Of a stretch of DNA of 64,000 nt, positions 12,344-55,030 are shown in pieces. Under the pieces are notes generated by a model. It had not been told where the DNA came from, did not search any database, and saw only the letters and a program-made list of their open reading frames with translations. Position numbers and translations under genes: made by a program. Each line of letters opens with the position of its first letter. Within the stretch, counting starts at the first letter, position 1. This stretch comes from Gammaproteobacteria bacterium (GTDB lineage: Bacteria > Pseudomonadota > Gammaproteobacteria > Burkholderiales > Gallionellaceae), in assembly GCA_018814405.1 (NCBI GenBank), contig JAHIZO010000007.1, positions 186,001 to 250,000 of the forward strand. Direction: 5' to 3'.

Positions 12344-14106
<1,763 letters not shown>

Positions 14107-37523: not shown

Positions 37524-38822
37524 ATGCGATTAATACTTGAAAATGTACGTGGCTTTGGTGCTCGTACAGAGGTTCCGATTAAGCCTCTTACTGTACTTAT
37601 TGGTGAAAATAGTACGGGAAAATCAACTGTACTCTCTATGCTCAATGCTGCGCTTCAGCCCAATTTTCCCTTTGGGGAAAACCCATTTAACAGCGCTCCG
37701 TTTGATATGGGTACTTTTGACACTATCGCAACCTACAAGGGAGGGAAGTTTGGTCGAGCCTCTACATTTACATTAGGAATAATGTCTACTGTGGGCGGAG
37801 AAGAAAGTGGCATTGAAACCACTTACACTAATGATTATGGAACGCCAGCAATTCTTGCTTCTGAGTGGACCTCACAGAACGCAACGCTAAAACTGGAGCG
37901 AAAGGAAGCATCTGGAAATTACACTCTTCATATTTCTACAAAAGCTAAAGATGGAAAAAGAAAAGAGTTCGATTTTGAGGTGGATCTACGAAATATTCGG
38001 CGAGATCGAAATAAGGATTTACGCACAGCATTGCTCACTGAAATCTTTTCACAAGGAAAGAGTAAAACTAGCACCCCTGAGGACTTTGAAGCCTTATTTG
38101 ATACGCTTTTTGAAGCGTCGTCGATTATTATGCGCCAGTCAGCCAGCGTTGTTGCCTTGGCACCATTAAGAACAAAACCAAGAAGAACCTATGATGAAAC
38201 AAAAGACGACTTTAAGCCTGAGGGCGATCATATTCCGCTACTGCTTTCTAGATTGTCGAGCGGCGGAAAATTAGACAATGAAAAAGTTGCCGCTTCATTA
38301 AATAGCTTCGGTATCACGTCACACTTATTCGACTCAATAAAAATCAAACGACTCGGAAAACGACCTAGTGACCCATTTCAAGTTCGAATTAAAGCGTCAG
38401 GCCCAGACGTCAATTTAACTGATGTTGGGTATGGTGTAAGTCAAGCTTTGCCTATTATCGTCGACTCAATCATGGCAAAAAAAGGACAAACTTTGCTGAT
38501 TCAGCAGCCTGAGGTGCATTTGCATCCTCGTGCGCAAGCTTCACTTGGAACGTTTTTTTCTACACTTGTAGCAGTTGAACACAAGAAGTTCGTGATCGAA
38601 ACACACAGCGATTATTTAGTAGATCGAATTAGGCAAGAGATTGCAAAAAAAACAATAAAGCACAGCGACGTAAGCCTGCTGTATTTTGAGCGCAAGGGAA
38701 CCGATTTGCACCTATCCCCCATTACCCTCGATTCAACCGGAAACATTCTGAATCCACCAGATGGATATAGAGACTTTTTCCTAGAGGAAGAAATGAACCA
38801 TTTGCTAAGAGGGGCCGATTAA
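37524..38822 (+). CDS. OLD/RloA-type AAA (ABC-like) ATPase, first gene of a two-gene cassette
   Basis: 432 aa, SMC/OLD-like fold (AAA_15/AAA_21 or DUF3696 type) with no TOPRIM domain. It opens MRLILENVRGFGARTEVPIK. Walker A is GENSTGKST at 27-35, the ABC-signature-like DVGYGVSQALP is at 300-310, Walker B LLIQQPEVHLHPRA is at 324-337 and the H-loop is ETHSDYLVDR at 359-368. The Walker B has Gln-Gln where relatives carry Glu-Glu or Glu-Gln. The stop is directly followed by the ATG of the PIN gene (TAAATG). Codon use is AT-richer than in neighbouring genes, pointing to transfer. Such ATPases pair with nucleases in anti-phage systems (RloAB/AbiL, Septu, PARIS); that role is inferred here. Confidence 0.85.
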   Translation: MRLILENVRGFGARTEVPIKPLTVLIGENSTGKSTVLSMLNAALQPNFPFGENPFNSAPFDMGTFDTIATYKGGKFGRASTFTLGIMSTVGGEESGIETTYTNDYGTPAILASEWTSQNATLKLERKEASGNYTLHISTKAKDGKRKEFDFEVDLRNIRRDRNKDLRTALLTEIFSQGKSKTSTPEDFEALFDTLFEASSIIMRQSASVVALAPLRTKPRRTYDETKDDFKPEGDHIPLLLSRLSSGGKLDNEKVAASLNSFGITSHLFDSIKIKRLGKRPSDPFQVRIKASGPDVNLTDVGYGVSQALPIIVDSIMAKKGQTLLIQQPEVHLHPRAQASLGTFFSTLVAVEHKKFVIETHSDYLVDRIRQEIAKKTIKHSDVSLLYFERKGTDLHLSPITLDSTGNILNPPDGYRDFFLEEEMNHLLRGAD

Positions 38823-39257
38823 ATGCCGACTATTGTTGATGCAAATTGCTGTTCAAAAACCTTTTCATCACCTCCTAATCCAGAGTTCATGCCAATTGTA
38901 AAAGCAATTTTTAGCGGTAAAGTAACGCTAGCTTGTGGCGGAAGGTTGCAGCGCGAATATGCGCTGATCAAAGATGCACGCAGTGCACTTGTTAAGCTTG
39001 AGCAAGCAGGTCGCCTAATATTGCTTAACAAAGATAAGGTTGATTTTCTTGAGAAGGAACTGATTGCCAAAAATGCCTGTGTTTCGGACGACCAGCATGT
39101 AATTGCTATAGCTCAACTATCGGGAGCTAGGCTCCTGTGTAGCCACGATCATGCGTTGCACACTGATTTTCAGAACAAGTCGTTAGTTGATCAACCGCGC
39201 GGGAAAATCTATCAGCATGCAGGCCATGCAAGCCTAATTAAAGCATTGGGCCTATAG
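38823..39257 (+). CDS. PIN-domain-like nuclease, partner of the ATPase
   Basis: 144 aa. The acidic residues are spaced as in VapC-type PIN nucleases: D6 (TIVDANCC), E45 (LQREYALI), D89/D90 (VSDDQHVIAIA) and D109 (LLCSHDHALHTDF), with D115 also available. The C-terminal IYQHAGHASLIKAL is not part of the classical VapC pattern. It starts with no gap after the ATPase stop, so the two are almost certainly co-translated, and no VapB-like antitoxin is adjacent. Inference: the ATPase senses a trigger or restrains the nuclease, and the PIN protein cuts RNA. Family membership is read from motifs only. Confidence 0.7.
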   Translation: MPTIVDANCCSKTFSSPPNPEFMPIVKAIFSGKVTLACGGRLQREYALIKDARSALVKLEQAGRLILLNKDKVDFLEKELIAKNACVSDDQHVIAIAQLSGARLLCSHDHALHTDFQNKSLVDQPRGKIYQHAGHASLIKALGL

Positions 39258-39478
39258 CATCATTCTGATGGCGCTTCTCAATGTTCATATCTGTTTTGAG
39301 AAACAAGCAGGCCAATACTCACGCATGGCAACACGCCTTATAACGTGCTGGAATTGAGGAGTAGCTAAAGGGGTCAGCATCGCAATTGTTTTCAGCAACG
39401 ACCGCTATGGGTTAGAAGCAGCCCTTGAGACTCACCGCCAATCGCTTGAGAAATCGCTGTTCGCTTTAAGTCAAAACC
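39258..39478. other. Intergenic remnant between PIN gene and first structured repeat
   Basis: About 220 bases with no supported gene. A hairpin TTCTCAA (39276-39282) / TTGAGAA (39297-39303) lies 20 bases after the PIN stop and may be a weak terminator. Later bases (GACCGCTATGGG, about 39402) look like fragments commonly left by decayed elements, but I cannot assign them. Confidence 0.35.
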
Positions 39479-39690
39479 GTCGGGGGTTGCCCGACAGCAA
39501 GTTACTTTCTTTTGCTTCGCCAAAAGAAAGTAACCAAAGAAAAGGCGACCCTGGTTTGCCGCCCACTACGTGGGTTCCCTGCGTTGCTCGGCAAGTCAGG
39601 CGTCTGCGGAACTCGCGCTACGCGCTCAGACAGTCCTCGCCGACATCCCCTGACTTACCTGCGCTACTCGGCGGCGCTCAAGGGAAATTA
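39479..39690 (+). repeat. Structured dispersed repeat, copy A
   Basis: About 210 bases. In order: hairpin GTCGGG/CCCGAC (39479-39495); a perfect 14-bp hairpin (39501-39514 with 39521-39534) with loop CTTCGC; CCCAC-TAC-GTGGG (39562-39574); and a long-range stem AAGTCAGG (39593-39600) / CCTGACTT (39649-39656) enclosing GCGC-TAC-GCGC (39615-39625). It ends with GCGCTACTCGGCGGCGC. Copies B (minus, next to it) and C (54732-54936) share the order. An open frame through it (about 112 codons) is not maintained in copy B, so I do not call a protein. Confidence 0.8.
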
Positions 39691-39719
39691 AAATCAACAG
39701 CGGTTTTGTGTGCGCTTTG

Positions 39720-39795
39720 CGCAGGCTTCTTTTTTGGTTTGGTGAGGCGGGCAATGCCCGCCTCGCTGGTTTGGGTTTTAGGTTTTTTGGTTTTG
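39720..39795. repeat. Central hairpin between the convergent repeat copies A and B
   Basis: GAGGCGGGC (39743-39751) pairs with GCCCGCCTC (39755-39763) over a 3-base loop, flanked by T/G-rich tracts on both sides (TTCTTTTTTGG; GGTTTTTTGGTTTTG). A weaker version of the same hairpin follows copy C (about 54992-55013). It could terminate transcription from either side. Confidence 0.6.
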
Positions 39796-39799
39796 ACTT

Positions 39800-40025
39800 T
39801 TCCTCCCCTGTGCGCCGCCGAGTAGCGCAGGACGGACGGGGGAAGTCCGACGAATATGTTTGAGCACGTGGCCGCGTAGCGGATCGTGCGAGTTTATGAG
39901 GAGGCCCGTCCGTTCGAGCAACGCAGGGTACCCCGAAGGGGCGGGAAGCTGGGGGCGCCTTCTTTTTGGTTACTTTTTCTTGGCGAAGCAAGAAAAAGTG
40001 ACTAGCTGTCGGGCTACCCCCGACG
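39800..40025 (-). repeat. Structured dispersed repeat, copy B (inverted relative to copy A)
   Basis: Reading the minus strand from 40025: hairpin GTCGGG/CCCGAC (40008-40024), the long hairpin (39969-39982 with 39989-40002, loop again CTTCGC in the sense orientation), CCCC-TTC-GGGG, and the enclosing stem ACGGACGGG/CCCGTCCGT (39832-39840 with 39905-39913) around CCGC-TAC-GCGG. It ends GCGCTACTCGGCGGCGC like copies A and C. The stem sequences differ from copy A but pairing is kept. Confidence 0.75.
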
Positions 40026-40218
40026 GTGTTGATTTTGAATTTGATTTCAAAACCAGCGGGCTTCGCCCATCTCCTTCGACCTTGCTCAGGACAGGCTTCG
40101 ATACGGCTGCGCCTAATCAGGACGAACGGCCTTAGTTCCTCTAGGTGCATAAGTTCACTAACAACCAGCCCGTCCCCCCAATGCTATAATCCGCGCCTCT
40201 TTTGAAGGCGTCCCCGCA
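40026..40218. other. Intergenic tail before argS with REP-like motif and -10 box
   Basis: Contains CTTGCTCAGGACAGGCTTCG and ATCAGGACGAACGG (about 40070-40131), which resemble the CTCAGG...GACGAACGG palindrome family found scattered in betaproteobacterial genomes. Next comes a TATAAT at 40185-40190, about 29 bases before the argS ATG, with no clear -35. No gene is supported. Confidence 0.45.
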
Positions 40219-54631: not shown

Positions 54632-54731
54632 CGCACGCTGTTGCGATTCACCGTCAGTTCCCTCTCCCGCCGGGGGAGGGCTAGGGTGGGGGAATACGCC
54701 TAGATATTCCGCAGACTTCAAAGTCAAAACC
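54632..54731. repeat. REP-like palindrome in the gap after the DUF1304 gene
   Basis: CCCTCTCCC-GCC-GGGGGAGGG (about 54660-54680) followed by CTAGGGTGGGGG is a short palindrome of a type I recognise as scattered through many proteobacterial genomes. It may also act as a transcription end, though there is no T run. Confidence 0.6.
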
Positions 54732-54936
54732 ATCGGGGGTTGCCCGACAGCAAGCTACTTTCTTTTGCTTCGCCAAAAGAAAGTAGCCAAAGAAAAGGCG
54801 ACCCAGCTTCCCGCCCCTTCGGGGTTCCCTGCGTTGCTCGACTGGTCAGGCGGCTGCGGAACTCGCGCTACGCGCTCAGACAGTCCTCGCCGAAATCCCC
54901 TGACCAGCCTGCGCTACTCGGCGGCGCACAGGGGAA
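54732..54936 (+). repeat. Structured dispersed repeat, copy C
   Basis: Same order of elements as copies A and B. TCGGG/CCCGA opens it. A perfect 14-bp hairpin (54754-54767 with 54774-54787) follows, loop CTTCGC, then CCCC-TTC-GGGG (54814-54824). The enclosing stem CTGGTCAGG (54842-54850) / CCTGACCAG (54899-54907) surrounds GCGC-TAC-GCGC, and the end is GCGCTACTCGGCGGCGC. Relative to copy A the long hairpin has T-A changed to C-G at its second pair, and the outer stem AA/TT changed to TG/CA, both keeping pairing. Confidence 0.8.
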
Positions 54937-55030
54937 AGAAGTTCAACAGCAGTATTGTGTGCGCTTTGCGCACGACTCTTTTTTGGTAGTGCGAGGCAGG
55001 TATTGACCGTCTCGTAGGCAACTGCTTATC
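54937..55030. other. Tail of repeat copy C
   Basis: Contains the TGTGCGC-TTT-GCGCACG hairpin (about 54957-54974), matching TGCGC-TTT-GCGCA after copy A, then a decayed GAGGC...CTC hairpin. No gene is supported here. Confidence 0.5.

Follow-up and report, generated by a model that had tools for sequence, protein, structure and literature searches.

Folded, inverted repeat arms that pair around interchangeable genes in Gallionellaceae and may form the ends of a small non-autonomous mobile element

Several described systems share part of their design with the repeats analyzed here. Integron cassettes (attC), as they are generally understood, carry mostly single, diverse, and often uncharacterized or toxin-antitoxin-like genes, conserve structure over sequence, and reuse sites, as do the units reported here. 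In contrast to integron cassettes, the arms are inverted at both ends, the sites are scattered, and units also occur in genomes that have no integron integrase over the cut-off. REP/BIME pairs, which go with Y1 transposases, likewise consist of palindromic repeats in inverted pairs, whereas the present units are much larger and hold genes, and none of the 6 Y1 loci examined had an arm nearby. Elements of the MITE type and mobile insertion cassettes with a passenger gene (compare PMC5444012 and PMC10969869) are non-autonomous, with inverted ends and an optional passenger. Our units share these traits, including the terminal inverted repeats typical of MITEs, but each end is a long folded arm that differs from its partner, and some empty sites keep a hairpin. 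A parent transposase was not found among the two enzyme families tried.

The nearest precedent for a third strand combined with variable loci is the E. coli BoxC/PIT/TM motif. The portion of PMC4666352 used here describes it as a G/C-rich, free-standing, intergenic sequence of ~36 nt with tandem inverted pairs at some sites, variable loci, and the strand order pyrimidine, purine, second purine, i.e., a class II intrastrand triplex; according to the same portion, it was not found associated with mobile elements. Our arms have this class II order (pyrimidine, purine, mirrored third purine strand), so far as a putative triplex can be read from sequence, and the arm fold resembles, but is not, E. 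coli BoxC/PIT. Unlike in BoxC/PIT/TM, the triplex part is A/T-rich and lies inside an arm of ~210 nt that includes a pseudoknot, and a gene is enclosed by many of the pairs. The TM consensus CCCTCNCCC-N3-6-GGGNGAGGG-N3-GGGNGAGGG was absent from the arms of the window, i.e., the whole stretch of 64,000 nucleotides of contig JAHIZO010000007.1 that was analyzed (first loops of 3 and 4 only, up to 2 mismatches). The sole match to the TM pattern in the window, with one mismatch and seen in 0 of 100 shuffles, lies outside the arms at 54660–54692, ~36 bp before the outer end of arm C. We found no description of this repeat family in the literature searched.

The window holds three copies of the repeat (Table 1), which the first-pass annotation had described as a dispersed repeat with covarying stems. 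Its coordinates and strands for copies A, B, and C were confirmed in the sequence, and the outer stems it quoted are present (for A, see Table 1; ACGGACGGG/CCCGTCCGT in B and CTGGTCAGG/CCTGACCAG in C), as are the small hairpin (CCCAC/GTGGG in A and CCCC/GGGG in B and C) and the inner hairpin variants GCGC/GCGC and CCGC/GCGG. The quoted stems of the long hairpin were also found, but the annotation had omitted copy B, which starts with GTCAC and ends with GTAAC and has a C.A mismatch. The repeat family is real; it is not free-standing, however, since the repeat is the end of a paired element able to hold genes. Copies A and B make up one unit as a facing pair, whereas C is a lone arm followed by an A-like spacer. 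Arms A and C are similar over 39473–39738. The spacer of short pairs such as A/B takes the position that cargo has in long pairs, and HP1 is the part left behind at some empty sites of sister species.

Table 1. Features of the repeat arms, in positions of the window
Feature	Position	Strand	Remark
Left arm A (type I)	39477–39697	+	Reads inward from outer end
HP1 of arm A, outermost hairpin GTCGGG-GGTTG-CCCGAC	39479–39495	+	
HP2 of arm A, long pyrimidine/purine hairpin GTTACTTTCTTTTG-CTTCGC-CAAAAGAAAGTAAC	39501–39534	+	
Third purine strand AAAGAAAA, mirroring the purine strand of HP2; putative triplex strand	39536–39543	+	
Pseudoknot of arm A, loop TCGCC (39517–39521) with GGCGA (39544–39548)	39517–39548	+	Covariation
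HP3 of arm A, small hairpin CCCAC-TAC-GTGGG	39562–39574	+	
Middle module of arm A	39593–39656	+	Variable outer stem AAGTCAGG (39593–39600) / CCTGACTT (39649–39656)
Closing segment GCGCTACTCGGCGGCGC..AAGGG, inner end of arm A	39661–39684	+	
A/B short-pair spacer, without gene, two hairpins TGCGCTTTGCGCA and GAGGCGGGCAATGCCCGCCTC	39698–39799	.	
Right arm B (type II), inverted relative to A	39804–40030	-	
HP1 of arm B, inverted relative to HP1 of A	40008–40024	-	
Arm C (type I), single, no right arm after	54730–54942	+	

Selection for a folded nucleic acid, proposed earlier from the three copies, is strongly supported by covariation across many relatives, and the additional copies keep compensating changes. 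In the 5′ half, 94.7% of the cells were paired among 115 distinct relatives, both-side changes were found in 230 cells against 53.9 on average after shuffling, and the covariation score was 0.257 compared with at most 0.052 when partners were slid, with the relatedness of the sequences inflating these and all other covariation and shuffle scores. The middle stem covaries likewise. One column pair of HP2 was unpaired in 55 of the 115 rows, mostly as C.A. For HP2, 237 model matches yielded 138 distinct hairpins past the filter, and the 128 that were readable with a third strand represent 53 distinct combinations. Across these combinations, the mirror identity of the third strand with the HP2 purine strand was 0.806, versus 0.656 (SD, 0.017) when shuffled, and agreement was 0.722 when the third strand was read as a direct repeat. 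The G positions of the two strands were identical in 28 of 53, the remainder including misread registers. The bases that follow the third strand pair with the HP2 loop, with a longest helix of 4.32 on average (versus 3.47; SD, 0.08) and one of at least 4 bp in 68 of 90, and the HP1 loop covaries with a downstream base, the two being complementary in 154 of the 157 pattern-fitting rows (of 237) with four pair types, or in 15 of 18 when counted by distinct sequence. Covariation supports the hairpin, the pseudoknot, and a third purine strand that mirrors the hairpin, i.e., a potential intrastrand triplex. Single-sequence folding beat shuffles only moderately (z, −2.8, −2.1, and −2.5), and in the energy model, the HP1 region instead takes the bases following the third strand as its partner.

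A coding function was rejected: the three ORFs that cross A/B had no match to a Pfam or NCBIfam model (E up to 1), a finding that goes against a conserved translated protein. Single-base steps within the long hairpin and an insertion of 15 bases separate the variants, so that no single reading frame is kept. A search of the whole window against Rfam gave no match over the arms at the gathering score, and over A/B with E up to 10, it gave only six weak matches, all far below gathering. Elsewhere in the window, 12349–12438 on the minus strand matches the Rfam anti-hemB RNA above the gathering score.

The family recurs in the sampled relatives. In the genome of the window, there were nine hits, namely, A/B, one pair on contig C2, one on contig C4 (the latter followed by a further arm split into two pieces), and C. 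Together with 40 relatives, hits were found in 26 of 41 genomes, with 24 of 25 in the genus (Sideroxydans-like, Gallionellaceae) and 2 of 16 outside. In a phylum sample scanned with filters that lose weak hits, at least 47 of 398 genomes had hits (at least 43 of 338 good ones and at least 35 of 212 genera), several of them as facing pairs. Named hosts among the matches listed include Gallionellaceae, Methylotenera and other Methylophilaceae, Glaciimonas, and others. A plasmid or phage origin was rejected, as a search with arm C found nothing in the phage and E. coli collections and only three partial 42-bp matches on Pasteurella plasmids.

Using a covariance model of the first 102 positions, we obtained 73 rows from six genomes, of which 4 weak ones (E above 0.001; one a lone HP1) were dropped. 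Of the remaining 69 arms, 58 stand in 29 facing inverted pairs, and 11 are single. Sixteen pairs are short (398 to 668 bp) and hold no gene, as in A/B, and 13 are long (994 to 1778 bp). This six-genome count is the fair one, because many of the searched loci were chosen for holding pairs; among neighboring arms in the latter, with some places counted twice, the orientation was +/− in 86 of 93, −/− in 5, +/+ in 1, and −/+ in 1. Three loci (L013 at 672–2293, L050, and L060) show a pair with one or more extra arms in the same direction, resembling short arrays, and L013 has HigBA-like genes between its arms. A 3.2-kb unit in genome G367, of another family (L157, 1021–4226), encloses several ORFs, one of which may encode a PAAR protein, judged by its motif.

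Each of the 13 long pairs encloses one or two ORFs that are plausible genes (at least 60 aa) and differ from pair to pair. When 27 cargo ORFs were queried against all loci collected, only a 236-aa gene, a HigBA antidote gene, one gene pair, and a DUF3800 gene had relatives in another unit. The 236-aa gene was shared by two species at the same site, the antidote gene was found in the same region of G000 and G021 with a further hit in G016, and the gene pair was 53% identical at two different sites (L046 and L134). The DUF3800 gene belongs to a unit of G024 at the copy-C site, and its 91% identical homologue in G018 stands at another site, beside a pair and not inside it. Thirty cargo proteins, with one of the two ORFs of L051 and of L141, were tested against Pfam: 11 reached the cut-off, 3 had weak matches, and 16 had no match. 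The domains matched were RES, BRCT, DUF2441, DUF4238, HEPN_RiboL-PSP, Gp49 with its antidote partner, CoiA_N, HEPN_AbiU2, DUF3800, and HEPN. PADLOC, run on 10 of the 30, gave one match, to part of a model. The inner ends share motifs, often a hairpin GGGCAACAAGTTGCCC and, after it, TAGTCAAAACAATTCGACTCCGGTACATTGG close to the ORF on its 5′ side. A second hairpin, GTGGGCACTTCGTGCCCAC, is found elsewhere and stands on both sides in several units. The polarity is only a tendency, as the first hairpin, identified by pattern, is on the 3′ side in L048 and L059.

What a given chromosomal site holds varies among sister species: the cargo differs, or the site has only one arm, a pair without cargo, or no element at all. 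L047 and L052 share both flanks and differ in cargo, with a 150-aa gene in one and a 239-aa gene in the other. The site between ubiX and mutY, named, like other flanks, from our reading of the sequence, holds four cargo genes in five species (the same gene in G013 and G024, and others in G004, G022, and G045), with G022 and G024 matched by one flank only. At this site, G003 has a pair, and G007, G014, and G011 each have one arm or part of one; G043, G041, and G020 showed neither an arm nor HP1, and G015 has a stretch that by eye resembles the middle module, like a remnant. At the copy-C site, we found the single arm in G000, a shortened pair in G045, and, matched by one flank, the DUF3800 unit in G024; G022, G007, G014, and G005 showed neither an arm nor HP1. 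A third site is occupied in G007 and by a pair in G018 (left arm with an insertion), while G006, with the same flanks (86 to 90% identical), has only ...CAACACC-GTCGGGGGTTGCCCGAC-GGTGTTGAATT..., i.e., the outermost hairpin left as ACC-GTCGGGN5CCCGAC-GGT. Comparing G018 with G006, we saw no duplicated host sequence beyond the letters of the HP1 stem. Six further lone HP1 stand at sites occupied elsewhere, in G016 and G006 at the copy-C site, in G005 and G001 at ubiX/mutY (followed by other DNA in G001), and in G005 and G000 at the third site, where the flanks of these last two are farther apart (277 and 1752 bases). With one mismatch allowed, 7 of 16 genomes had lone HP1 palindromes, at 13 places in all, of which two are probably chance matches. 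HP1 as an abundant, independent target palindrome was rejected on this count, and because such palindromes are rare, we read HP1 as an empty socket or a scar.

The outer flanks of a pair resemble each other's reverse complement (0.608 versus 0.504 shuffled; SD, 0.021; 58 pairs), part of which is due to lineage, because genomes were pooled and a few other families were among the pairs. For 112 arms, the closest relative was at the same site of another genome in 7 cases, at another or unlabeled site of another genome in 81, in the same genome in 15, and the partner arm in 9, many sites being unlabeled in this count. The best cross-species identity of arms had a median of 95.2% (108 arms), compared with 88.3% for the argS region (24 genomes), a figure that is only suggestive, being a maximum over many arms.

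Our preferred reading, with a probability of about 0.5, is that the copies form the folded ends of a small mobile element that is non-autonomous and that gene cassettes move as units at HP1. The anatomy of the element is well supported. A unit runs in the order HP1, arm, optional cargo of one or two ORFs, inverted arm, and HP1, and such units occupy a limited set of intergenic sites, the cargo of each varying among species. A unit would insert and leave as one piece at HP1, the empty site being ACC-HP1-GGT. A circular unit with one HP1 would join the hairpin of the site at the shared CCCGAC or GTCGGG, and a single crossover at HP1 would give exactly the occupied structure observed, with one arm kept per end. 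The mover may be an enzyme or recombination; an enzyme in trans would recognize the folded arms (pseudoknot and third strand), probably as single-stranded DNA. The direction of change at each site is likewise something that we infer. That arms are not closest to arms of the same site, together with the empty sites and the turnover of cargo, favors units that move whole. On the other hand, no recombinase was found (integron integrase and Y1 transposase families were tried), no fresh insertion with a clean pre-insertion site was found, the flanks near arms have often diverged, and the HP1 copies of a pair lie in inverted orientation, unlike a direct target duplication. The results suggest a gene-swapping system.

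If this is true, single accessory genes would have a further carrier besides integrons, transposons, and phages, several of these genes being HEPN or toxin-antitoxin-like and many uncharacterized, and a genome-wide list of cargo could be read from the arms alone. In addition, the third strand of a bacterial repeat gains support from covariation and not from pattern matching alone, which offers a testable explanation for the co-occurrence of triplex repeats with variable gene content. More tentatively, there may be a dispersed gene-cassette system in which the pseudoknot and third-strand fold, as single-stranded DNA or RNA, would be the recognized end and the chromosomal hairpin a socket, with interchangeable genes plugged in and removed by a hypothetical recombination enzyme. 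The E. coli BoxC pairs could then be small functional relatives.

The arms could instead be passive instability repeats, as proposed for the E. coli triplex motifs, a possibility to which we give limited weight. They would stall replication or break, and genes between or beside them would turn over by homologous recombination of arms and by slippage, with no dedicated enzyme. The E. coli TM/BoxC motifs also form tandem inverted pairs at some sites and have variable loci, in the part of PMC4666352 used, and the BoxC-like motif before arm C agrees with this explanation. The HP1 remnants fit it as well, as they may be deletion scars from slippage between 6-bp repeats rather than products of recombination. 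Passive repeats, however, need no conserved structure, whereas these long, multi-part arms keep theirs as the sequence changes, and the cassette ends beside the arms often share hairpins and a tail of their own. A role as RNA is somewhat more doubtful. Arms read outward would give a pseudoknot, a U-rich third strand in the major groove, and then HP1 with GGUUUU as a terminator, which would stabilize or end the transcripts of the cassette. This strand would form a pyrimidine-type triplex, the type that, according to the introduction of PMC4666352, forms in RNA while the purine type does not. The mismatches in HP1 and HP2 as written (145 A.C versus 24 G.T) correspond to G.U pairs on that opposite strand, but many of the A.C cells stem from one column pair and from shared ancestry, and the pseudoknot helix leans the other way (53 G.T versus 25 A.C). 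With different helices favoring opposite strands, assigning the strand by wobble pairs was given up as conflicting, and a purely RNA role leaves the coming and going of whole units unexplained.

Passenger-carrying relatives of IS200/IS605 or of REP-transposase (Y1/HUH) elements, moved single-stranded by a Y1 transposase in trans, appear unlikely. Subterminal hairpins, precise restoration of empty sites, and the lack of a target duplication would fit that mechanism, and PF01797 was present in 18 of 31 genus genomes, but G000 and G004 (one contig), both carriers of units, had no PF01797 match. The integron integrase model TIGR02249 was over the cut-off in 13 of the 31 and not in the unit carriers G000, G004, and G024. 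Among ten transposase or integrase loci examined, no arm was within ~3 kb of any of 6 Y1 loci (best matches only) or in any of 4 integron integrase loci. Both enzymes were rejected as the mover on their genome distribution and on these loci.

Two observations concern the surroundings of the units. By eye, a second dispersed repeat of the CTTCGA..CTCAGGACGAACGG type stands beside the outer ends of several units, including at 40115–40129 of the window, where its short core is not above chance. Upstream of argS, the stretch 37524–39257, between an NYN gene and the A/B pair, holds an AAA_15-type ATPase gene followed by a 144-aa ORF; in G018, an NYN-like gene directly precedes argS, so this stretch differs among species.
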